From Acidimicrobiia bacterium (GTDB lineage: Bacteria > Actinomycetota > Acidimicrobiia > Spongiisociales > ZC4RG35): a stretch of 64,000 nucleotides of DNA. The translations under genes and the position numbers were made by a program. This document shows, piece by piece, positions 2,599 through 52,779 of the stretch (positions are counted from its first letter, which is position 1; each line of letters begins with the position of its first letter). The notes beneath the pieces are model-generated. The model was not told where the DNA came from and did no database searches. It worked only from the letters and a program-made list of their open reading frames with translations. The stretch spans positions 124,001 through 188,000 of the forward strand of contig JANQOU010000003.1 in assembly GCA_028285585.1 (NCBI GenBank). The letters run 5' to 3'.

Positions 2599-3676
2599 CG
2601 AGCTGAGCCGGGTGAGGGCGGAGATCGCTGCCATCGACCGGGAGATGGTCGAGCTCGCAGCCAGGCGCTCCCGGCTTGCTGACGAAGTCGGGTCGCTGAA
2701 ACGAGCCAGCGGCTCGGCGATTCGCGACTACGGCCACGAAAAGGTGGTCATCGACCGCGCCAGGGAGCTGGCCCGGTCTGCGGGTGTCTCCGAGCAGCTT
2801 GCCGAGAGCTTGATGCTGGAGCTGATCCAGGCCTCGCTCGAGATCCAGGAGCAGGGCCAGGTTGAGGCGTCGTCGGCCGGCTCGGGGCAATCGGCCACTG
2901 TGGTGGGTGGCTCGGGGCAGATGGGCCGCTGGTTCGTGCGTTTTCTGAGGTCTCAGGGCTACTCGGTGACGGTGGCCGACCCCGACGATGGAGATGTCGC
3001 GGACTGGCGTGACGGCTCTTCGGACGACGATCTCTACGTGGTGTCGACACCGTTGCCGGTGGCTGCCGAGGTTCTCAAGCAGATGAGCGAGTCGCCGCCC
3101 GGCGGCGTGGTTCTCGACATTGGTTCTCTCAAATCTCCCCTCCGCGATCCTCTCGAGCGCATGGTTCGAGCAGGTGCAGACGTGGCTTCGATACATCCGA
3201 TGTTCGGGCCGGAGACGAGGCTGCTGTCTGGGCGGCATGTCGTCCTGGTAGACCTGGGCTCGTCCCGGGCGACGGGCAGGGCGCATGACCTCTTTGCCTC
3301 GACCATGGTCTCGGTTGTGGAGATGGACCTGGAATCTCATGACCGGCTCATTGCCTACATCCTCGGTCTCTCCCACGCACTCAACATCGCCTTTTTCACG
3401 GTCCTGGCAAGCAGCGGTGAGAGTGTGGGCCGGCTCGCCGACCTCTCGAGCACGACCTTCGATCGTCAGCTCGACGTGGCGGCCCTGGTGGCGCGAGAGA
3501 ACCCCAACCTCTACTTCGAGATCCAGCATCTCAACGACTACGGCGGCGAGTCGCTGGCGGCCTTGGCGGCTGCCGTGGGCCGGCTGCAGCAGGTCGTCGG
3601 CGAAGGGGATCTCCAGACCTTCACCGAAATGATGGAGACCGGCGCCCGCTACTTCCAAGAGAAGGATCTCCGTTAG
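2591..3676 (+). CDS. tyrA: Bifunctional chorismate mutase / prephenate dehydrogenase (T-protein type)
   Basis: The 361-residue protein has two domains. Residues 1-90 are an AroQ-type chorismate mutase, with the helical pattern RAEIAAIDREMVELAARR and a following GHEKVVIDRARELA helix. After a short linker, VVGGSGQMG at 104-112 opens the NAD(P)-binding Rossmann fold of prephenate dehydrogenase. IHPMFGPETR (201-210) and the later SHALNIAFFT are typical of the dehydrogenase domain. It would convert chorismate to prephenate and prephenate to 4-hydroxyphenylpyruvate for tyrosine synthesis. This fusion is best known from Gammaproteobacteria. The stop overlaps that of the convergent HAD gene by 3 bases. 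Confidence 0.88.
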   Translation: MSDELSRVRAEIAAIDREMVELAARRSRLADEVGSLKRASGSAIRDYGHEKVVIDRARELARSAGVSEQLAESLMLELIQASLEIQEQGQVEASSAGSGQSATVVGGSGQMGRWFVRFLRSQGYSVTVADPDDGDVADWRDGSSDDDLYVVSTPLPVAAEVLKQMSESPPGGVVLDIGSLKSPLRDPLERMVRAGADVASIHPMFGPETRLLSGRHVVLVDLGSSRATGRAHDLFASTMVSVVEMDLESHDRLIAYILGLSHALNIAFFTVLASSGESVGRLADLSSTTFDRQLDVAALVARENPNLYFEIQHLNDYGGESLAALAAAVGRLQQVVGEGDLQTFTEMMETGARYFQEKDLR

Positions 3677-4449
3677 GAGGTCTTGCGGCCCTTCATCGCC
3701 CAGTAGGCGAGCACGGCTGCCATGCCTGTTGCGACAGCGGCCCCCGCCACCTCCTTGGTTCCGATCCGGTCGCGCAGAGTGACGGCAGACTCGAACGTCC
3801 GCACTTCCCACCCGTTGTCCTCAGCAGCCTGAGCAAGCTCTGCATCGGGGTTCACCACGATCGGGTGGCCGACGATCTCCAGCATCGGGAGGTCCGTTGC
3901 TGAGTCCGAGTAGGCGTAGCTGGCGGCCAGGTCGATGCCGTCGCGTTGCGCCATCTCCTCCATGGCCTCGGCTTTGGCGGGGCCGTAGGCGTAGAACTCG
4001 ATGTTGCCCGTGTACAGGCCCTCGTCGTCCACCTCGCTTCGGGTGGCGATCACATCGTCGATGCCCAGGTAGCGGCAGAGTGGCCGGACGATCTCCTCTG
4101 GACTGGCTGAGATGACGACCACGCGGTGGCCGTCTCGCTTGTGCTGATCGATGATGGCGAGGGCCTCGGCGAAGACAAGCGGTGTGACCACCTCGTCGAC
4201 TGTCTCTGTGACCAGATCTTCTATCTCGTCTTTCGACCACCCCTTCACCAGGCCGGACAGCTCTTCCTTGACTCGCTCCAACTGGTTGTGGTCGGCACCA
4301 AACGCCTGGTAGTAGGCCTGGGCGATGCCCGCCTTGGCCAGGGTGCTGCCGCTGAGAAGACCGGCCCTGAACATGGGTCGTGTGAAGGCGAGTGTCGACG
4401 ACTTGGCGATGATGGTCTTGTCCAGGTCGAAGAAGGCCGCAGCGCTCAC
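3673..4449 (-). CDS. HAD-IB family hydrolase with C-terminal membrane helix
   Basis: The 258-residue protein starts at GTG 4449. HAD motif I is DLDKT (8-12), the motif II Ser is in VVISAS (111-115), the motif III Lys is in GPAKA (156-160) and motif IV is SDSATDLPM (181-189). The layout is that of the SerB-like HAD-IB group, whose members dephosphorylate phosphoserine, lysophosphatidic acid or similar small substrates. A hydrophobic helix near 234-252 followed by KGRK suggests attachment to the membrane. The first 13 codons and 27 upstream bases are duplicated about 1 kb away at 5449-5512. The substrate is not evident. Confidence 0.85.
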   Translation of the reverse strand: MSAAAFFDLDKTIIAKSSTLAFTRPMFRAGLLSGSTLAKAGIAQAYYQAFGADHNQLERVKEELSGLVKGWSKDEIEDLVTETVDEVVTPLVFAEALAIIDQHKRDGHRVVVISASPEEIVRPLCRYLGIDDVIATRSEVDDEGLYTGNIEFYAYGPAKAEAMEEMAQRDGIDLAASYAYSDSATDLPMLEIVGHPIVVNPDAELAQAAEDNGWEVRTFESAVTLRDRIGTKEVAGAAVATGMAAVLAYWAMKGRKTS

Positions 4450-4476
4450 GACATCAAGTTACCGCTGCCTTGGACG
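4413..4476. repeat. Direct repeat, copy 1: 5' end of the HAD gene and upstream bases
   Basis: These 64 bases hold the first 13 codons of the HAD gene (minus strand) and 27 bases in front of it. They recur without indels at 5449-5512. The central 32 bases (from the AGGTCGAAG at 4424) are identical and only about five positions differ overall. The two copies have the same orientation and bracket the lipoprotein gene at 4544-5431. Confidence 0.9.
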
Positions 4477-4543
4477 GAACCGTGGGGTGGCGACATGCGT
4501 CCAAGAGGAATCGCAGGCAGTACGCCAACCCTTGCGGGGTCTC

Positions 4544-5431
4544 ATGAGCCATTGCTACGGACGTTCCGATCGACTTGCCTCGACGATGCTGGTGTTGACA
4601 ATGGCTTTGTCCGGCTGTGTGACGTCGCCGGCAGACGGCCACCGAGATGTTTTGCAAGCAGCTGATAGTCGTGTCGCCAAAGCCACGACGACCGCAGTCA
4701 GCGCTGATTGCCCGCGTGTCGCGGGATACTCCGTTGTCTGGTCTCCCGGGTTTGGTTTCGACGGCTCATCGTTCCAGTCCTTGCGAGGCACCGAGGTTCG
4801 TTGGCTGTTGCTCGACTCCGCGTTCCAGCTGGTGTCGGCTGTGTGGGTTCGCACGGACCGGCCGTATTTCGGGTTGTCAGAAGAAAGCCGAGCCTGCGTC
4901 GATCAATCGGCCCGCTGGGTTCTCGAAGCGGCTCCGCCGCCGGGTTATCAAGGTCGTCAGTATGTGGAGTATCAGAGCCCCGATCTTTTTGACGAGAGCA
5001 CTTGGGATCTAATGACAGCTCATCCCTGGCGACTCACCGGATACGGACAAGTTGGAGTAGAGGAGCTGAATACGGCCGGGTATCTAGGTGTGATTCGGAT
5101 CAGCGATGAGACGGTGATGGTGAGAGGCCCATGCGGTTCCGACGCGAAGATCACGAAGATCCGCGGGTTTGATCTGGCTCCGAGAGGAGGCCTCTATGAC
5201 GGCGTCCTGGTTTGCGAGCCTCCACACGGCTACGAAGAACCGGACGAGTCGGCTCAGTGGTCGATTCTCACCTCTGGTACTCCGACGGTTGGTGAGAACA
5301 CTCTGACAATCACCCACGACGGCGTTCAATACAGATACGAGCCGATCACGGAAGAGGAGTTCCTGGCGGAGTACTCACAGGGGGATCTCCCTGTGTTCAA
5401 GGATCCACTAGGTCAGCTAGCCGGCAGGTAG
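4544..5431 (+). CDS. Predicted lipoprotein of unknown function (cassette between direct repeats)
   Basis: From ATG 4544 the protein has 295 residues. The N-terminus (CYGRSDR, then LASTMLVLTMALSGC) is a lipoprotein signal with lipobox LSGC and modified Cys at residue 25. The mature part is about 270 residues, without further membrane helices or repeats, and with several Cys that could form disulfides. It is rich in Trp, Tyr and short turns, consistent with an extracellular beta protein. I recognise no family. A longer frame upstream would run through the HAD gene on the other strand and is rejected because it destroys the signal. The gene is the only one inside a 972-bp segment between 64-bp direct repeats, so it is probably acquired. 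Confidence 0.7.
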   Translation: MSHCYGRSDRLASTMLVLTMALSGCVTSPADGHRDVLQAADSRVAKATTTAVSADCPRVAGYSVVWSPGFGFDGSSFQSLRGTEVRWLLLDSAFQLVSAVWVRTDRPYFGLSEESRACVDQSARWVLEAAPPPGYQGRQYVEYQSPDLFDESTWDLMTAHPWRLTGYGQVGVEELNTAGYLGVIRISDETVMVRGPCGSDAKITKIRGFDLAPRGGLYDGVLVCEPPHGYEEPDESAQWSILTSGTPTVGENTLTITHDGVQYRYEPITEEEFLAEYSQGDLPVFKDPLGQLAGR

Positions 5432-5448
5432 CTCACCAAAGGTGACAG

Positions 5449-5512
5449 TGGTTCTGTCCAGGTCGAAGAAGGCCGCAGCGCTCACGACATCGAGTTACCG
5501 CTGTCTCGGACG
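5449..5512. repeat. Direct repeat, copy 2: duplicated 5' end of the HAD gene
   Basis: This is the second copy of the 64-base segment at 4413-4476. Read on the minus strand it still encodes a GTG start and the phosphatase motif as FFDLDRTT, where the intact gene has FFDLDKTI. It then leaves homology and reaches a stop within a few codons. It is therefore a dead gene start left in front of the tad locus. Confidence 0.9.
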
Positions 5513-5577
5513 TGGGTCTTGTAACCGAAGCGGCTCGCCAATACGTTCGAGCCATGGGTTTCCAGGGGAGAGGAAAC

Positions 5578-6099
5578 GTGATCGCGGTGACATCGATCGA
5601 CCCCGTCTTGTCGTACGTCGGGTCTGTCGGCATGGCGATGGCGGCAGGGTCAGGCCTCGTGGTCGACCTTTGCGACACGGGCAGTAGGAATCGATCTCTC
5701 GCCGATCTCGATGCTGACGGTCCTCGATTGGAAGAGTTGAGTCCCGGCAGACAAGGGATAGCGGTTCTCGCCGGCGGCCCGGTGGATCGTGACCGGGCCG
5801 CCCAGCTCGTATTCGATCTGGCCGAGCGATGGCCGGTCGTGGTCGTCCGAGTGTCGAGTCCGCCGTTTGCCAGCCCATGTGTCCCTCTGGTGCCGCTCTA
5901 TCCGGGCAGGCTCAGCCCGAGTGGCGACGAGCCGGCTGCATGGCAGCCCGTGGGACCGGTGAGGAGCGCTCCTGGGCCTGGGCCGGTTCTCCCGCCTCTT
6001 CCGTCACGCCTCACCAGGCAGGTTTTGGCAGCACGTCATCCGAGGCACTGTCGCTGGACCAAGGCAGTCGCTCGACTGTGGGATTTGCCGTGGGACTGA
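5578..6099 (+). CDS. CpaE/Ssd-like protein at the head of the tad locus, degenerate P-loop
   Basis: The start is taken at GTG 5578 because GGGGAGAGGAAAC lies 0-13 bases upstream, a good ribosome site; earlier GTG (5512) and ATG (5554) codons lack one. The 173-residue product begins IAVTSIDPVLSYVGSVGMAM and continues to LVVDLCD. That matches the first strand, loop, helix and second strand of MinD/CpaE ATPases, but the Walker A glycines and lysine are absent. The second half is Pro-rich and poorly structured. In actinobacterial tad loci this position holds the Ssd/CpaE homologue, normally about 350 residues. It is either a shortened, non-ATPase version or a decaying one. It overlaps tadA by 10 bases. 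Confidence 0.6.
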   Translation: MIAVTSIDPVLSYVGSVGMAMAAGSGLVVDLCDTGSRNRSLADLDADGPRLEELSPGRQGIAVLAGGPVDRDRAAQLVFDLAERWPVVVVRVSSPPFASPCVPLVPLYPGRLSPSGDEPAAWQPVGPVRSAPGPGPVLPPLPSRLTRQVLAARHPRHCRWTKAVARLWDLPWD

Positions 6100-8478: not shown

Positions 8479-8840
8479 GATCTGAGCGGGGGAGCGTCAC
8501 CGTGGAGTTCTTTCTGGTCCTCCCAATCTTGGCGATCGTCCTGATCGGGGCTCTTCAGGTGATAGGCCTGGCTCGGGCACGGGTCGAGTTGGTAGGTGCG
8601 GTCCGGGAGGGAGCAAGGGTGGCTGCGACCACTCCTGATCCCGCCCGGGCCGTGCAAGCCGTGGAGGATGCGATGCCACCGGAGGCGCGGTCTCGGCTTC
8701 GGATCTCCGTTTCTCGGCCGGGGGAGGTGGGGAAGCCGGCTCGAGTCACTGCGGTGCTTCGTCATGGCTTTGGCCCACCCTTGCCATCCGATCTCAGTGT
8801 CGATCTGACCGCATCGGCGGTCATGGCCGTTGAGCGCTGA
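8457..8840 (+). CDS. tadE: TadE-like pseudopilin
   Basis: The 127-residue product overlaps the pilin end by 22 bases if ATG 8457 is used; a GTG near 8502 would give a shorter form. RGSVTVEFFLVLPILAIVL is the TadE signature, with the conserved VEF/VEFALV and a single N-terminal membrane helix. The remainder is a small extracytoplasmic alpha/beta domain (AVREGARVAATTPDPARA). TadE-like proteins are minor pseudopilins of the Tad system. It ends inside the next gene start. Confidence 0.8.
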   Translation: MGAGPVLRSERGSVTVEFFLVLPILAIVLIGALQVIGLARARVELVGAVREGARVAATTPDPARAVQAVEDAMPPEARSRLRISVSRPGEVGKPARVTAVLRHGFGPPLPSDLSVDLTASAVMAVER

Positions 8841-9216
8841 ACGGGGTGGGGCTGCTGTCGTCGTCATGGCGATGGCGGCCCTGCTCCTGGTTGTGGCGAC
8901 AGGAGTGGTCTCGATGGCGATGGTGCTGGCCGGACGTGCCCAGGCGTCGAATGCCGCGGATGCGGCGGCACTCGCTGCTGCTGTGGCGTCTTACCCGCCT
9001 GCTTCTCAGACGACTCCTTCAGCGGCTGCCGGCTCGATGGCGCGCCACAACGGAGCTGCTGTGGTTACTTGTGCTTGCCCTGTTGATGGCTCGTTGTCGG
9101 CTCGGGTTGTGGAGGTAGTTGTCGAACTGCCTATGGAGGTTCCTCTGTTCGGCGAGGTCTTGGTTCGCTCTTCGGCTCGGGCCGAGTTCGATCCTCTTCT
9201 CTGGCTGGGGCGATAG
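8830..9216 (+). CDS. TadF/Rv3654c-like secretion protein
   Basis: The start is TTG 8830, overlapping tadE by 11 bases, giving 128 residues. The N-terminus ERGGAAVVVMAMAALLLV and the segment GRAQASNAADAAALAAA are typical of the TadG/TadF-like helix with an Ala-rich continuation. The rest is a small beta domain ending SSARAEFDPLLWLGR. Its last 22 codons and the following start region of polX are repeated at 10473 and 11583. It is the last gene of the tad series; no rcpC or tadZ follows. Confidence 0.75.
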   Translation: MSAERGGAAVVVMAMAALLLVVATGVVSMAMVLAGRAQASNAADAAALAAAVASYPPASQTTPSAAAGSMARHNGAAVVTCACPVDGSLSARVVEVVVELPMEVPLFGEVLVRSSARAEFDPLLWLGR

Positions 9217-9229
9217 TCAGGAGTCATGG
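9148..9229. repeat. tadF-3'/polX-start repeat, copy A
   Basis: This is the 3' end of the intact tadF gene, its stop, a GTCAGGAGTC ribosome site and an ATGG start. It corresponds to 11583-11663, where the real polX gene begins. After the ATG at 9226 the homology stops. That ATG opens a chance 59-codon frame ending at 9405, which looks like debris rather than a gene. Confidence 0.88.
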
Positions 9230-9401
9230 CATTGGGGTCTCCAGCTTCGTATAGGCTGTCTGAGGGTCAAGCTGAAGAGCCGTCAAGCCGATGCATACCG
9301 CGAACCACCACAAACCAGGATTGCCAGAACGGTGAGCGTGAACCTGTGTTAACTTCATCTGGGTTGAAGGTCGATAACTTGACCACCAAGGCGAACCACC
9401 T

Positions 9402-9797
9402 ATGACAGGGACGTTTTTGCACGTTTCGGATGTGGCTGACGAGATCGTGCAGTCTTACCTGCATCGACTGACGCGTCGGATTGGCAACGAGCACATAAAA
9501 GAGGTCTGGTTCAGAGTTGTGTCCGGGTCGTTTGTGTTGCCTCTGGACAGCAGAACCACAGTGATCGACACGCCCATCTTCGAAGTGTTGATAAGCGTTT
9601 CCGAGCCGATGTCAGGACTGAGCAGTGCTTTGGCCGGGGCGGCAACTGAAATGCGAGGCAAGCTTCGGGTTATGCCGGACGCTGTCATGGATGGTGATCT
9701 GACATCGGCGGACCTGGAGTCGGGGGGTTGGTGCCAGACGGACGTGCCCAGAGTCGTGTCGCCGGTTCCGGCACAGGAAGCTCTGGCTCTGAGCTAG
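9402..9797 (+). CDS. Hypothetical protein in an acquired segment
   Basis: This 131-residue protein has no membrane segment or signal. It begins with a helical stretch (VSDVADEIVQSYLHRLTRRI), then strands around EVWFRVV and FEVLISV, and a disordered, Pro-rich C-terminus. I do not recognise it. Base composition is visibly less GC-rich than the flanking genes. It converges with the HEPN-like gene and overlaps its end by 4 bases, so the two could be a functional pair. It lies between repeat copies A and B. Confidence 0.5.
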   Translation: MTGTFLHVSDVADEIVQSYLHRLTRRIGNEHIKEVWFRVVSGSFVLPLDSRTTVIDTPIFEVLISVSEPMSGLSSALAGAATEMRGKLRVMPDAVMDGDLTSADLESGGWCQTDVPRVVSPVPAQEALALS

Positions 9798-10186
9798 AGC
9801 TCGGTTAAGACTGCTTCCATGAGTCGAATGGACTCGTTGATGAGGTCCTCGGCCTGTGTGGCGAATGGCTTGAACCACTCACTTGCCTTCTTGTTGGAGC
9901 CACGCAAGTAGCGGCTGGCATTGCAATGCCGATACAGCTCACGAACCTGCAGTTCGAGGATTTCTTTCTTCGGAAGGTCATGGTCAGCTGGGATCGCAAT
10001 GATCTCTTCGTGTTGTGTTCGCTGTTCACCTTTCTCAGCCGCCACGGCTTGTAGAGAGTGCATAACGGCGTAGTAGGCAGCTACTGGTGCCCAGCGCATC
10101 AAGATCGGATCACTGCTGCTCGCAAGTTTGCGTGCCAGCTCCGCGGCTTCTGAACTCCAGAGCTTGTGATCAGAGACTGATCCCAT
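9794..10186 (-). CDS. Small helical protein resembling HEPN-domain nucleases
   Basis: The preferred start is ATG 10186 (130 residues); a TTG at 10213 would add nine. The protein is all-helical. WAPVAAYYAVMHSLQAV resembles the tyrosine-rich second helix of HEPN proteins. RELYRHC provides an R-x4-H motif like the HEPN ribonuclease site, followed by a long C-terminal helix. HEPN proteins are often toxins or antiphage RNases. The assignment rests on this pattern only and the Polar-x-x-H part is not ideal. It is convergent with the 9402-9797 gene, which could be its partner or antidote. Confidence 0.5.
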   Translation of the reverse strand: MGSVSDHKLWSSEAAELARKLASSSDPILMRWAPVAAYYAVMHSLQAVAAEKGEQRTQHEEIIAIPADHDLPKKEILELQVRELYRHCNASRYLRGSNKKASEWFKPFATQAEDLINESIRLMEAVLTEL

Positions 10187-10436
10187 GTCAGCCGACAGTA
10201 CAACTGTCGCCAACTCGGTAGCTTGGCATCAACTAGGCCTTTTTTTCGCGAGTTGTTGTAGCGCTCCACCGCATTCGCACTTCACGAGGCATCTGCTCCT
10301 CGCTTTCGAGTGAGCGAGATGTCTAATCAGCTGGATGCCAATTCGGGAAGCTGTGGACAGCTGCTCTAGCCAAGGCGTAGAACTGTTCTGTGAGGCACGG
10401 GTCTCCGACAGGTAGTCTCGTACTCAAAGTTCACGA

Positions 10437-10464
10437 AAACGGGCCCTTGAGGCCCGTTTCCTTT
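10437..10464 (+). terminator. Rho-independent-like terminator
   Basis: AAACGGGCC pairs with GGCCCGTTT across a five-base loop, followed by CCTTT. The T-run is short but the stem is perfect. No clear upstream gene on the plus strand uses it. It may be a leftover of the inserted segment or may serve an unrecognised transcript. Confidence 0.65.
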
Positions 10465-10472
10465 GTAGGGGA

Positions 10473-10523
10473 TTCGGCGAGGTTTTGGTTCGATCCTCTT
10501 CTCTGGCTGGGGCGATAGTCAGG
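10473..10523. repeat. tadF-3' repeat, copy B (internally deleted)
   Basis: TTCGGCGAGGTTTTGGTTCG joins directly to ATCCTCTTCTCTGGCTGG and runs to GATAGTCAGG, following copy A base for base. A 23-base piece between two TTCG words is missing, and one base differs. It is closer to copy A than to copy C. It sits between the two acquired segments. Confidence 0.85.
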
Positions 10524-10534
10524 GCATCCCGTTC

Positions 10535-11486
10535 TCAGCACACATACATGGAACGGGTCGTCGAAGGTTTCACGCAGTGGCCAGCGGTCGTCACACCGCG
10601 CACACCGTTGTGCGTTGCGGCAGAACTTGGTCCACACAGGCTGTCCGTGGTGGGATTGGCTGGGTTGTTGTCGTTCTTCGAAGTGTCGAATTCGCCATTC
10701 GGATCCGTGAGCCATTCCATCCGGCCGCCTGGTTCGTAACTGATCGCGATCTGATCAGGAATGGCTAGCGACTCGACGACTTTCCGAGCAGCGGTCTCTT
10801 CGTTGGTGAGGACCGCTATCTCGTTGGGTCGTGCTGCTCCTGATGCATCGACTCCGGCGGCGTGGAGTGCCTTTTCGATCCTGTTCCAGTGAGCGGCAAC
10901 CACCGCAACTGGCACAAACCCTCCACGCACCTCGACCTTTCCGTTGCTGCCCATCAAAGCCTTAGTCTTTGCTTCGATCTCGTCCTCTCGTGCCGATACG
11001 CACACAACCAAAGTCTTGGTTTCCAAATCGGGGTTGACGGCTACAAGAACGTCCATGAAGTCATGCCAGAGTTTGTCCATCACCTCGAGCCCCGCGTAGC
11101 TCTGCCACTCGAGCAACTCGACTGCTTTCATCAGCGGATATGCCACGGTCCGTCATCAGACGTTGCACGATCGCCGGGTCAGGGACAAAGGTTCCGTTCT
11201 TCACCTCGTCTCGTGTCAACGTCGACTCGCCATCGCCTGTCGCAGGACTGAAAGCTCCGGAATCAAAAAGCAGGTTCCAATCGACTTCACCCCATGCAAA
11301 GACCTCGTCCCAACCGATCTCTGGTTCCACAAAGACGGAGAAGTGTTCGGCTGGATTGTCAGGCTCACCAACGTCCTGAGCTACGGCAGCCTCAGCCTCG
11401 GCACCCAAACTCGCCATCAGCGCTAGAGAAATCAGCGTCGTAATCCGTGCGAAAACACGATGTCTCATCCGATCGGACCCCTGCAT
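10535..11486 (-). pseudogene. Decayed S1-family serine protease (frameshift and 3' truncation)
   Basis: Two overlapping minus-strand frames belong to one protein. The first (11486 to about 11127) has a signal peptide (RITTLISLALMASLGAEAEA) and an acidic pro-region ending near DRGISADE. The second continues AVELLEWQSYAGLEVM and ends with GVRGVTTAGHC, the catalytic-His motif of chymotrypsin-like proteases. Removing one A from the AAA at 11126-11128 would join them. The gene stops 12 residues after the His, next to repeat copy B, so the Asp and Ser of the triad are lost. It is most likely a dead, secreted streptogrisin-like protease. A sequencing error could explain the frameshift but not the truncation. 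Confidence 0.75.
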
Positions 11487-11582
11487 TGTCGTCCTCGACG
11501 ATCACCGTTGAAGCTACACCATGCCCTTGGCTAAATCTGACGGCAACCGTCGTGGTCCAGGTGCCAAGTGCTTGTTCCTTCG

Positions 11583-11663
11583 TTCGGGAGGTCCTGGCTC
11601 GCTCCTCGGCTCGGGCAGAGTTCGATCCTCGTCTCTGGTTGGGGCGATAATCAGGAGTCATGG
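11583..11663. repeat. tadF-3'/polX-start repeat, copy C
   Basis: This is the copy that runs into the functional polX start. It aligns with 9148-9229 apart from about a dozen substitutions, mostly at third codon positions of the tadF frame, and still reads SSARAEFDPRLWLGR followed by a stop. Weaker protein-level similarity to the tadF end extends upstream to about 11530 (TATVVVQVP). It is therefore an older, diverged remnant of a tadF 3' end. Confidence 0.85.
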
Positions 11664-13390
11664 TCACTCGTGGCGAAGCGATGAGGATGTTGGCTGAGTT
11701 GGTGAAGCTGACTGCTCTTGACGAGGGCTCCCCTCAGGCGTTCAAGGTCCGCGCCTATGAGAAGGCTCTCGCCGGCATCGAGGGGCATCCGGGTGATCTC
11801 GATGGGATGACCAAGAGCCAGCTCACCGAGATCAAAGGTGTCGGCAACTCGACCGCCGACAAGATCCTGGAGCTGGGCAAGACAGGCAAAGTCGCCAAGT
11901 TGGAGAGTCTCCGGGAGAAGTACCCGCCGCCGTTCCTCGAACTCACCAAGATCCCCGGTTTGGGCCCTAAGACGTTGAAGAGCTTGCGCGCCCAGCTCGG
12001 TGTCGAGGATCTCGACGGGCTCAAGGAGGCGGTGGCTCAGCAGAAGCTGCGAGAGCTTCCGGGCCTTGGCGAGAAGTCCGAGGAGAAGATCGCAAAGGCA
12101 ATCGAGCGTCTCGGTCTCCATGGGAAGGACCGAAGAACTCCTCTCGTCGAGGTCTATGGCCTGGCGCGCTCGCTGGCACAACGCCTGGAAGATGTCGACG
12201 GTGTCGAGCAAGCCGAGCCATGTGGCTCGATCCGGCGCTTCTCGGAGACGATCGGCGATATCGACATCGTGGTGGCCACGACGAATCCGGCGGCAGTCTC
12301 GGAGACCGTTCTCGCATTCCCCGAGGTAAGCGAAGTGGTGGGTGCCGGGGACACCAAGACGTCCTTCCTGACACGGGAGGGGATGCAAGTCGATGTGCGC
12401 ACTGTGAGCCCCGATCAGTTGGGCTCTGCCCTCATGTACTTCACCGGGTCCAAGACCCACAACATCGCCTTACGGCAACGGGCGATCGACCGGGGCTGGC
12501 TGCTGTCTGAGTATGGGTTGTTCGATGGTGACGACGTGGTTGCCTCTGAAACGGAGGAGGCGATCTACGAGGCGCTCGAGATGCAGTTCGTGGAGCCGCC
12601 CTTGCGCGAGGGGAGCGGTGAGGTGGAGGCAGCAGCCGACGGTGAGCTGCCGGAGCTGATCCAGCGGAACCACATTCGGGGTGACCTCCACTATCACTCT
12701 GATCGCTCAGGTGACGGCCGTTCATCTCTCGAGGAGATGATCGAGGCTGGGATCGAGGCGGGATACGAGTACGTCGCTTTCACCGACCACGGTGAGGATC
12801 TGGCGATCAACGGCTCGTCCCGGGAAGAGATGCTGGCGCATCGTGACCGGATTCGACAGCTCGACGCGGCATACGACGAGATCAAGATCTTGTTCGGATG
12901 TGAGCTGAACATCGGCCCCGATGGAGACCTTGACTACGACGCCGGCTTCAGGCTCGAGTTCGACTATTGCGTGGCCTCGATTCACTCCCACTTCGACCTT
13001 TCCGTCGAAGAGCAGACCAGCCGGATCCTCAAGGCGCTCGCCGATCCTTCGGTGAATGCCATCGGTCATCTCACCGGCCGGTACGTGGGGCGCAGGCCAG
13101 GGGTTGAGCTGGACATCGACGCGGTCTTGGAAGGGCTCGCCGTGACCGGTGTCGCCTTGGAGGTCAACGGTGCACTGGATCGACTCGACGCCACGACCGA
13201 TGTGACTCGGCGGGCGCTGGCCGCCGGTGTAGACCTCGTCATCGACACCGACTCGCACCACACCATAGACTTGGTCCGGATGGGCTACGGGGTTCGGTAT
13301 GCGCAAAGGGCATGGGTGACGCCGGATCGAGTGATCAACACGCTTCCTTTAGATGGGTTTCTCGACTGGGCCGTGCGGCGACGCGGGTAG
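11660..13390 (+). CDS. polX: DNA polymerase/3'-5' exonuclease PolX
   Basis: The 576-residue protein is full length for bacterial PolX. Two helix-hairpin-helix elements occur early (EIKGVGNSTADKI, KIPGLGPKTLKSL). The polymerase palm has GSIRRFSETIGDIDIVV with the catalytic DID, and MQVDVR with the third Asp. The C-terminal third is a PHP exonuclease domain: GDLHYHSDRSGDGRSS, YVAFTDHG and a later DTDSHH. It acts in gap filling and base excision repair. ATG 11660 follows an AGGAG seven bases upstream, which is also present in the repeated segment in front of it. Confidence 0.93.
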   Translation: MVTRGEAMRMLAELVKLTALDEGSPQAFKVRAYEKALAGIEGHPGDLDGMTKSQLTEIKGVGNSTADKILELGKTGKVAKLESLREKYPPPFLELTKIPGLGPKTLKSLRAQLGVEDLDGLKEAVAQQKLRELPGLGEKSEEKIAKAIERLGLHGKDRRTPLVEVYGLARSLAQRLEDVDGVEQAEPCGSIRRFSETIGDIDIVVATTNPAAVSETVLAFPEVSEVVGAGDTKTSFLTREGMQVDVRTVSPDQLGSALMYFTGSKTHNIALRQRAIDRGWLLSEYGLFDGDDVVASETEEAIYEALEMQFVEPPLREGSGEVEAAADGELPELIQRNHIRGDLHYHSDRSGDGRSSLEEMIEAGIEAGYEYVAFTDHGEDLAINGSSREEMLAHRDRIRQLDAAYDEIKILFGCELNIGPDGDLDYDAGFRLEFDYCVASIHSHFDLSVEEQTSRILKALADPSVNAIGHLTGRYVGRRPGVELDIDAVLEGLAVTGVALEVNGALDRLDATTDVTRRALAAGVDLVIDTDSHHTIDLVRMGYGVRYAQRAWVTPDRVINTLPLDGFLDWAVRRRG

Positions 13391-34943: not shown

Positions 34944-37421
34944 ATGTTTGAACGGTTCACAGACCGGGCTCGAAGGGTCGTCGTTCTCGCTCAGGAAGAG
35001 GCGCGGCTCCTCAATCACAACTACATCGGGACCGAGCACATCCTCTTGGGGCTGCTCAATGAGGGCGAGGGAATAGCCGCGCAGGCATTGGAGAGCCTCG
35101 ATATCGACCTTGCCTCGGTGCGTGAGGAAGTGGTCAAGATCATCGGTCAGGGCCAGCAGTCACCGTCCGGGCACATTCCCTTCACACCCCGGGCCAAGAA
35201 GGTCTTGGAGTTGTCGTTGCGCGAAGCGCTTCAACTCGGCCACAACTACATCGGGACCGAGCACATCCTCCTTGGCCTCATCCGAGAGGGTGAGGGAGTG
35301 GCCGCACAAGTTCTGCAACAGCTGGGTGCCGAGCTCCAGAAGGTTCGGCAGACGGTCATCCAGCTGTTGTCCGGGCCGGGTGGCAGTGAGGAGCAACAGC
35401 CCAAGACCGCAGGATCCGGTGGGCGTGAGAGCTCCGGCTCGGGGTCGACCATCCTCGACCAGTTCGGCCGCAACCTGACCCAGACCGCCGGCGACGGTGG
35501 CCTCGACCCTGTCATCGGCCGTCAGCGTGAGATCGAGCGGGTCATGCAGATCCTTTCCAGACGGACCAAGAACAACCCGGTGCTCATCGGCGAGCCTGGT
35601 GTCGGAAAAACAGCGATTGTCGAAGGGCTCGCCCAGCGGATCATCAGCAAGGACGTCCCGGAGAACCTGGAGGGCAAGCAGCTCTACACCCTTGACCTGG
35701 GTGCCTTGGTTGCCGGCTCCAGGTACAGAGGTGATTTTGAGGAGCGTCTGAAGAAGGTCCTCAAAGAGATCAAGTCTCGCGGGGACATCATCCTGTTCAT
35801 CGACGAGATTCACACGCTGGTCGGCGCCGGTGCCGCGGAAGGCGCCATCGACGCTGCCTCGATCTTGAAGCCGATGTTGGCGCGAGGTGAGCTTCAGACG
35901 GTGGGTGCGACCACTCTCGAGGAGTACCGCAAGTACTTGGAGAAGGATTCGGCTCTGGAGCGCAGGTTCCAGCCGGTACAGGTCGAGGAGCCTTCGCTGA
36001 CCGACACCATTGACATCTTGATGGGGCTCAAGGACCGTTACGAGTCTCACCACTCGGTCCGTTTCACCGACCAAGCGATCGTGTCGGCTGCAAACCTCGC
36101 CGACCGCTACCTCGCCGATCGTTTCCTCCCAGACAAGGCCATCGACCTGATCGATGAAGCCGGGTCCAGGATGCGCATCCACCGCAAGAGCGACGTGCCC
36201 GAGATCCTCGAGATCGACGGTCGGCTCGGCGACCTGCGCAAAGACAAGGCAGAGGCCGTTGGTGGGGAGAACTACGAGCGGGCAGCCAACCTCCGTGACG
36301 AAGAGCGTTCCCTGCTCTCCGAGCGTGCGCTCAAAGAGTCGGAGGTCGACGAAGGCGGCTGGGTGATCGACGAGGAGGAGATCGCCGAGGTGCTCGCACA
36401 ATGGACCGGCATCCCGGTGCACCGTCTCACCGAAGAGGAGACGGCACGCCTCGTCCAGATGGAGAGCGAGCTTCACAAGCGGATCATCGGGCAGCACGAC
36501 GCCATCACCGCAGTGTCGAAGGCCATCCGCAGGACTCGTGCCGGTCTCAAGGACCCGCGACGCCCGTCTGGATCGTTCATCTTCCTCGGCCCGTCCGGTG
36601 TCGGGAAGACAGAGACTGCCAAGGCGCTGACCGAGTTCTTGTTCGGGCAGGAAGACTCGTTGATCCAGCTCGATATGTCTGAGTACATGGAGAAGCACAC
36701 CGTCAGCCGTCTGGTCGGCTCCCCTCCGGGATATGTCGGTTACGACGAGGGCGGCCAGCTCACCGAGGCCGTGCGGCGCAAGCCGTTCTCGGTGGTGCTC
36801 TTCGACGAGATCGAGAAGGCCCACCCGGACGTCTTCAACACTCTCCTCCAGATACTCGAAGAGGGCCGGCTCACCGATGCTCAGGGTCGAAGTGTCGACT
36901 TCAAGAACACAGTCATCATCATGACTTCCAACCTCGGCACCAGAGACCTCCACAAGAAGGCGGTCGGTTTCCACGTCGCGGACGAAGAGGTCTCCTACGA
37001 GCACATGAAGGAGAAGGTGACGGAGGAGCTCAAGAAGAGCTTCCGGCCTGAGTTCATCAACCGGCTCGACGAGATCATCGTGTTCCACGAGCTGACGATG
37101 GACGAGCTGAAGCAGATCGTTGACCTGATGCTGGAGCGGGTTCGCGATCAGCTGGCCGCCCAGCAGCTCGACCTGGCTCTCACCGACGACGCCAAAGAGC
37201 ATCTCGGCACCCAGGGTTACGACCCCGAGTTGGGGGCGCGGCCGTTGCGTCGGGCGATTCAGCGTCTTCTCGAGGACCCGTTGTCGGAGCGTGTGCTTCT
37301 CGGCGAGTTCAAGGCCGGGACCACCATCCTGGTTGGTTTGGACGAGCAGAACCTGGAGCTCACCTTCGAGGGCATCACTTCACCGGAGACACCTCCGGTT
37401 GAGTTGGCCGGCCAGGAATAG
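34944..37421 (+). CDS. clpC: ATP-dependent Clp protease ATPase subunit ClpC
   Basis: The 825-residue protein has two Clp_N repeats ([19 protein letters not shown] and [19 protein letters not shown]). Two AAA modules follow: Walker A GEPGVGKT then GPSGVGKT, with [12 protein letters not shown] in the first. A UVR-like middle segment [16 protein letters not shown] separates ClpC from ClpA. It unfolds substrates for ClpP. ATG 34944 has only a weak ribosome site. TTGAAG and TAGAAT words occur in the 100 bases upstream, but their spacing is not convincing, so the promoter is unresolved. Confidence 0.95.
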
Positions 37422-52477: not shown

Positions 52478-52580
52478 TTTGGGATAATGGGGGGTGAGCG
52501 GAGTAGGCGGGAGTTTCGCCGGAGCCTGCCGTGAGGCAGGTGGAGGGGAACACTCCAACGTGACGCTTCGCGTCACGCCG
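52478..52580 (+). promoter_or_regulatory. tRNA-Thr leader: promoter-like GATAAT and REP-like hairpin, repeat copy 2
   Basis: TTTGGGATAATGGGGG (52478-52493) supplies a -10-like GATAAT. A 60-base insert follows, with pairing words such as GCCTGCC and GGCAGG. The perfect hairpin GTGACGC-TTC-GCGTCAC (52560-52576) ends exactly where the mature tRNA begins at 52577. Transcription from here would give a leader of about 80 bases for RNase P removal. Confidence 0.55.
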
Positions 52581-52649
52581 GGTTAGCTCAGTTGGTAGAG
52601 CAACTGATTTGTAATCAGTAGGTCATCGGTTCGACTCCGGTACCCGGCT
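52577..52649 (+). tRNA. tRNA-Thr (anticodon TGT)
   Basis: The 73-base cloverleaf has acceptor GCCGGGT/ACCCGGC with discriminator T, D-arm GCTCAGTTGGTAGAGC, anticodon arm ACTGA-TTTGTAA-TCAGT and T-arm TCGG-TTCGACT-CCGG. Anticodon TGT reads ACA and other ACN codons. CCA is not encoded. Confidence 0.95.
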
Positions 52650-52779
52650 CCTCAGGCAAGCTGAGGAGCTCTGAGTTTCCTTTCGGAAACTCGGTCTCCT
52701 TTCGTCGGGCTCCTCAGGCGAGCTGAGAAGCTTTGAGGTTCCTTCGGAATCTCTGGTTCCCGTCACCCGGCTCCTCGGA
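52644..52779 (+). repeat. Tandem repeat of tRNA 3' end plus two hairpins
   Basis: A unit of about 61 bases beginning CCGGCTCCTCAGGC occurs at 52644 and 52706, and a third start (CCGGCTCCTCGG) at 52767. Each full unit has two stem-loops: GCTCCTCAG-GCAAG-CTGAGGAGC and GAGTTTCC-TTTC-GGAAACTC in unit 1, and slightly decayed versions in unit 2. The unit start copies the last bases of the tRNA. Confidence 0.75.

Follow-up and report, generated by a model that had tools for sequence, protein, structure and literature searches.

In the 64,000-nucleotide stretch of DNA analysed here (the window), a HAD-family hydrolase gene on the minus strand (3673..4449; Pfam HAD, 1.9e-37), which has a 78% identical orthologue in genome G008, is separated from a tadZ-like gene on the plus strand (5554..6099; identified by tblastn and by promoter alignment with L020-L028) by a 972-bp segment, insert A (4477..5448, plus strand), lying between two direct copies of a 64-nt sequence. 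The first-pass annotation of the window had described the same 64-base piece at 4413-4476 and 5449-5512 with about five differences, and these coordinates are right: the plus-strand copies align without gaps at 59 of 64 positions (92%, five differences; E about 8e-19 in a self-comparison of 220 kb of the contig with a nominal search space of 1e10). The identical core that it described is also present, but is 37 nt long (4419-4455) and not 32. The leftmost 4-6 bases of the repeat may match by chance, which would reduce the core repeat to 58 nt and three differences. Copy 1 consists of the HAD 5' end plus 27 nt upstream and includes the first HAD codons (GTG at 4449, minus strand), and copy 2 retains the GTG and the DLDRT (DxDxT) motif and reaches a stop after about 22 codons, in agreement with the original description of one functional and one abortive HAD start. 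Between them, as also proposed, is a single intact open reading frame, encoding a lipoprotein of 295 aa and of unknown family (4544..5431, plus strand, from ATG 4544; lipobox LSGC). The G+C content of insert A is 59%, compared with 62% for the window.

The genus is represented by this genome alone, and relatives were compared at family level. In the family relatives, whose HAD proteins are 68-78% identical, the HAD and tadZ genes are directly adjacent and divergent, with no lipoprotein gene; the site is thus empty in all close relatives, which supports the insertion suggested at first reading, where a comparison with relatives was rightly proposed as the check. A conserved GGGTCTTGTA element lies directly to the right of copy 2 in the alignment with relatives, and the sequence there, GGGTCTTGTAACC ... 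ACGTTCG..CCATGG, corresponds to the conserved tadZ promoter and start of the relatives. Copy 2, which abuts the native tadZ promoter side, is therefore joined to the native right flank, as copy 1 is to the native left flank; the same promoter conservation indicates that tadZ probably starts at ATG 5554 and not at GTG 5512. Since the HAD-tadZ sites of relatives are empty, the copies are joined to native flanks and the cargo is absent from the family relatives (it has a single DNA match in its own genome), insert A is established by sequence comparison as a real insertion. The source is a metagenome-assembled draft from the Acidimicrobiia, 2.59 Mb in 14 contigs and 97% complete, and a draft in this number of contigs could contain an assembly fault or chimera. 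Such an origin is very improbable, as copies at separate loci are 4-11% divergent and both flanks match relatives; moreover, the five differences between the A copies, together with similar repeats at several loci, make an assembly duplication unlikely.

Among 149 genomes, the insert A lipoprotein has one clear relative (G007, 32% identity), which sits between other genes and not at HAD-tadZ. No direct repeats were found around the G007 gene, and no relatives of the lipoprotein gene were found in viral contigs. Re-examination of insert A (4477-5448) revealed neither a transposase or integrase gene nor terminal inverted repeats, as had been noted from the sequence alone. Direct repeats on both sides are what insertion sequences and transposons produce, and an ordinary element of this kind with an unusual target duplication would account for that feature. 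It is nevertheless hardly a credible source, given that transposase and terminal inverted repeats are missing and that the repeat is part of a gene, is different at each site and ranges from 40 to 155 nt in length. The first-pass annotation had argued that known insertion sequences duplicate 2-14 bases and that a 64-base duplication consequently needs a special explanation. This argument is not supported: it considered only insertion sequences and overlooked integrase att sites, and long repeats of gene ends are what integrase-type integration normally leaves behind.

Five kb downstream of locus A, at locus B, three copies of the 3' end of a TadE/G-like gene (tadG-like; 8830..9216, plus strand; Pfam Tad, 9.5e-6) enclose two cargo segments ahead of a polX-like gene (11660..13390, plus strand), its native right neighbour. 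The first copy (9139..9229, plus strand) runs from the tadG-like 3' end through a duplicate of the polX ATGG. It is followed by insert B1 (9230..10457), which holds an orphan gene (9402-9797, plus strand) and a HEPN-domain gene (9794-10213, minus strand); the two are convergent (9402-10213) and are possibly a toxin-antitoxin-like pair. The second copy (10458..10523, plus strand) is degraded, with a left block of about 30 nt, TTCGGCGAGGTTTTG, then a 23-nt deletion and then 36 nt (10488-10523) that are 100% identical to copy 1. Insert B2 (10524..11573, minus strand) encodes a disrupted secreted protein whose TAGHC motif is trypsin-like, cut off beside copy 2; translation gives two frames (10535-11146 and 11061-11486), with the remainder of the protease domain missing, and no relatives of the protein were found in 99 genomes or in viral contigs. 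The third copy (11574..11663, plus strand), 89% identical to copy 1, is joined to polX. In L050, L052 and L053 the tadG-like gene ends directly before polX, i.e. the site is empty. The three copies have a common left boundary, and copy 1 is identical to the middle copy at 36/36 positions and to the far copy at 89% over 91 nt. Integration of a younger element at the functional end of the target gene would give this order of divergence. An idea that the tadG copies diverged as functional genes (5/7 differences are synonymous) was dropped because copy 3 has a frameshifting gap and the differences at locus E are mostly non-synonymous.

A search for other gene-sized segments flanked by gene-end copies, as proposed at first reading, was carried out on 1.24 Mb (48%) of this genome and identified loci B to E; in 1.0 Mb of the family relatives G012 and G017 no gene-end repeat pairs were found. 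Gene-end flanking repeats are present at loci A, B, C and E, and partly at D. At locus C, outside the window, the repeat (contig C13, 95977-96046 and 96731-96800; 70 nt, 95.7% identical) comprises 16 nt from the 5' end of the tRNA-Sec gene and 54 nt upstream, and brackets one small lipoprotein gene. The distance from tRNA-Sec to a RodZ-like gene is about 990 bp here versus about 150 bp in L212-L214 and others; relatives thus have an empty site at C (tRNA-Sec), as at A (HAD-tadZ) and B (tadG-polX). A 42% paralogue of the locus C lipoprotein is encoded 19 kb from it in this genome, and a 47% relative is encoded in G027 (L133 16174-16647; L300, C13 76599-76910); no flanking repeats were found at either. 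At locus E the repeat (contig C4, 309429/314239; 87 nt, 92%) is the 3' end of a small HTH gene that is not conserved in the family; it was originally about 155 nt long, copy 2 having a 38-nt deletion, and its 4.7-kb cargo encodes a secreted protein, a lipoprotein and a MacB-type exporter. At locus D, 40 nt of tRNA-Val (contig C1, 229477/232291) bracket 2.8 kb; tRNA-Val is a classical integrase site.

Whether such insertions form a discrete class was addressed by a synteny survey against G012 and G017, in which an insertion was a syntenic interval that exceeded its counterpart in the other genome by at least 400 bp, the counterpart being below 500 bp. The best flanking direct repeat scored 49-61 at A, B and C and 9-15 at the other 17 of the 20 insertions in this genome. 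In the reverse direction, none of the 41 insertions in the relatives had such repeats (maximum score 14). The difference (3/20 vs 0/41; one-sided Fisher test, 0.03) is suggestive only, because numbers are small and A, B and C had been found before the survey. Repeat-flanked insertions appear to form a discrete minority class. The main point is the gap in score between the two groups, most gene gain in this genome leaving no long duplication. Some of the mapped intervals may reflect sequence lost from the other genome.

These scores bear on the capture of foreign DNA during break repair, in which paired nicks, a staggered break or a backward template switch would copy 60-150 nt of target to both sides, and gene-end positions would be the survivors, since both neighbours keep working. 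The genome has a Ku gene, no recombinase or common site is associated with the repeats, repeat lengths vary, the broken gene fragment of B2 stops at a junction, and one of the main ways in which small variable segments are reported to arise is illegitimate recombination (PMC2884548). Those segments, formed by illegitimate or homology-facilitated recombination, resemble the present loci as gene-sized insertions lacking mobile-element genes, but their repeats are mostly <30 bp, whereas here they are 58-91 bp or more and consist of gene ends (PMC2884548). Moreover, the 17 of 20 other insertions without an above-background repeat make the pattern all-or-none and not graded, and the shared left boundary of the three tadG copies also counts against break repair. 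Capture at a staggered break, which the first-pass annotation had put forward, fits less well, repeats being long at 3/20 insertions and at background at 17/20, and threefold at tadG; overall, break repair is less likely than integration relics but, as no recombinase, arm symmetry or shared core was found, a serious rival.

Eroded remnants of integrating DNA elements match the scars best, ahead of a new kind of transposon, and insert A is tentatively read as one of several Campbell-type integration relics similar to CIMEs (probability about 0.45). Each repeat contains one end of a gene that is kept intact, and the discrete gap in scores (49-61 vs 9-15) fits such relics. In integrase-type elements one repeat contains the gene end and leaves the gene undisrupted; tyrosine recombinase elements enter the 3' ends, more rarely the 5' ends, of tRNA or housekeeping genes, and the flanking repeats of IMEs are generally 8-60 bp (PMC5704250). 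A CIME is a decayed element without integration and transfer genes that has kept attL and attR, and CIMEs can form tandem arrays (PMC5704250). In this reading, a circular DNA carrying a gene-end segment would have recombined once with the chromosomal gene end, so that the cargo came to be flanked by the segment on both sides and the target gene stayed intact. The catalyst would most likely have been a tyrosine integrase, since deleted or acting in trans, and att-like repeats would remain around one or a few cargo genes, as in a CIME. At tadG, the functional gene's own copy would have been the entry point of the younger element.

The likeness to CIMEs lies in the absence of integration and transfer genes from the cargos and in the empty sites at A, B and C; the differences are the longer repeats, the single-gene cargo, the several sites in one genome and the lack of a parent element or integrase. 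The scars are ordinary in kind, and unusual in their number per genome, tiny cargo and lack of an integrase; they are provisionally filed as working like CIMEs. Several features count against integration relics. The repeats, at 58-91 nt (about 155 nt originally at E), are longer than the usual 8-60 bp of IMEs, a tRNA 5' end, as at locus C, is unusual as an integrase site, and an element reduced to a one-gene cargo of 0.7-1.0 kb would have decayed to an extreme degree. The cargos yielded no integrase, relaxase or recognised phage gene, and no integrase-bearing element was seen at HAD in the family loci compared, nor at tadG or selC in relatives. The repeats have no common core >8 nt, and in none of them was inverted-repeat symmetry or an inverted core-type site found above shuffles; the inverted core-type sites of tyrosine integrases are often degenerate. 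The only intact tyrosine recombinases in the genome are XerC-like and XerD-like, the XerC-like gene lying between dprA-like and whiG-like sigma factor genes, and no serine resolvase was found in this genome. A third tyrosine recombinase, the only non-Xer one found, is a broken phage-type gene beside tRNA-Ile (L191 1211-2461; C4 about 516700), which fits the reading of the scars as integrase relics.

Integration of a similar form could also proceed without an integrase, through a RecA-dependent single crossover of a transformed circle or end-joined fragment with 60-150 nt of gene-end homology. The genome has ComEC- and dprA-type genes, the repeat lengths would allow RecA pairing, and the tandem accretion at tadG is consistent with homologous exchange between repeats. 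This route is rather improbable, as it leaves unexplained how the cargo first became linked to a copy of that gene end, and the G007 relative of the lipoprotein lies between other genes. Also doubtful is a recombinase-free process of the lineage itself, which would repeatedly insert single genes, often for lipoproteins or secreted proteins, and copy 60-150 nt of target; the scars would then be found at gene ends because survivors are those in which both neighbours stay whole.

Bacteria commonly acquire genes singly or in pairs, usually with no trace of the mechanism. Here at least four insertions in one genome have the same scar, three of them with empty sites in relatives, which makes the insertion process open to study. 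Should the scars derive from integrative elements, they show how far such elements can erode, down to one cargo gene; otherwise, they record a form of gene insertion that copies long stretches of target and has no dedicated enzyme.

The repeat pair at 35016/35241, considered as another scar, is an internal repeat within a Clp-type ATPase gene, and a candidate gene-end repeat in G012 belongs to an intergenic repeat family. A dispersed family of intergenic palindromic repeats (ACCTCAGGTAATACCGACC..., GGAGTTTCTGGCAGAAACTCC) is present in this genome (C4 391145-401318, C1 278687-285905 and C13 96803-96900), one copy of which abuts the repeat at the tRNA-Sec locus. In the window itself, positions 52577-52776 contain a 70-nt tandem unit (62-nt period, 80%) that starts at the 3' end of a tRNA-Thr gene.
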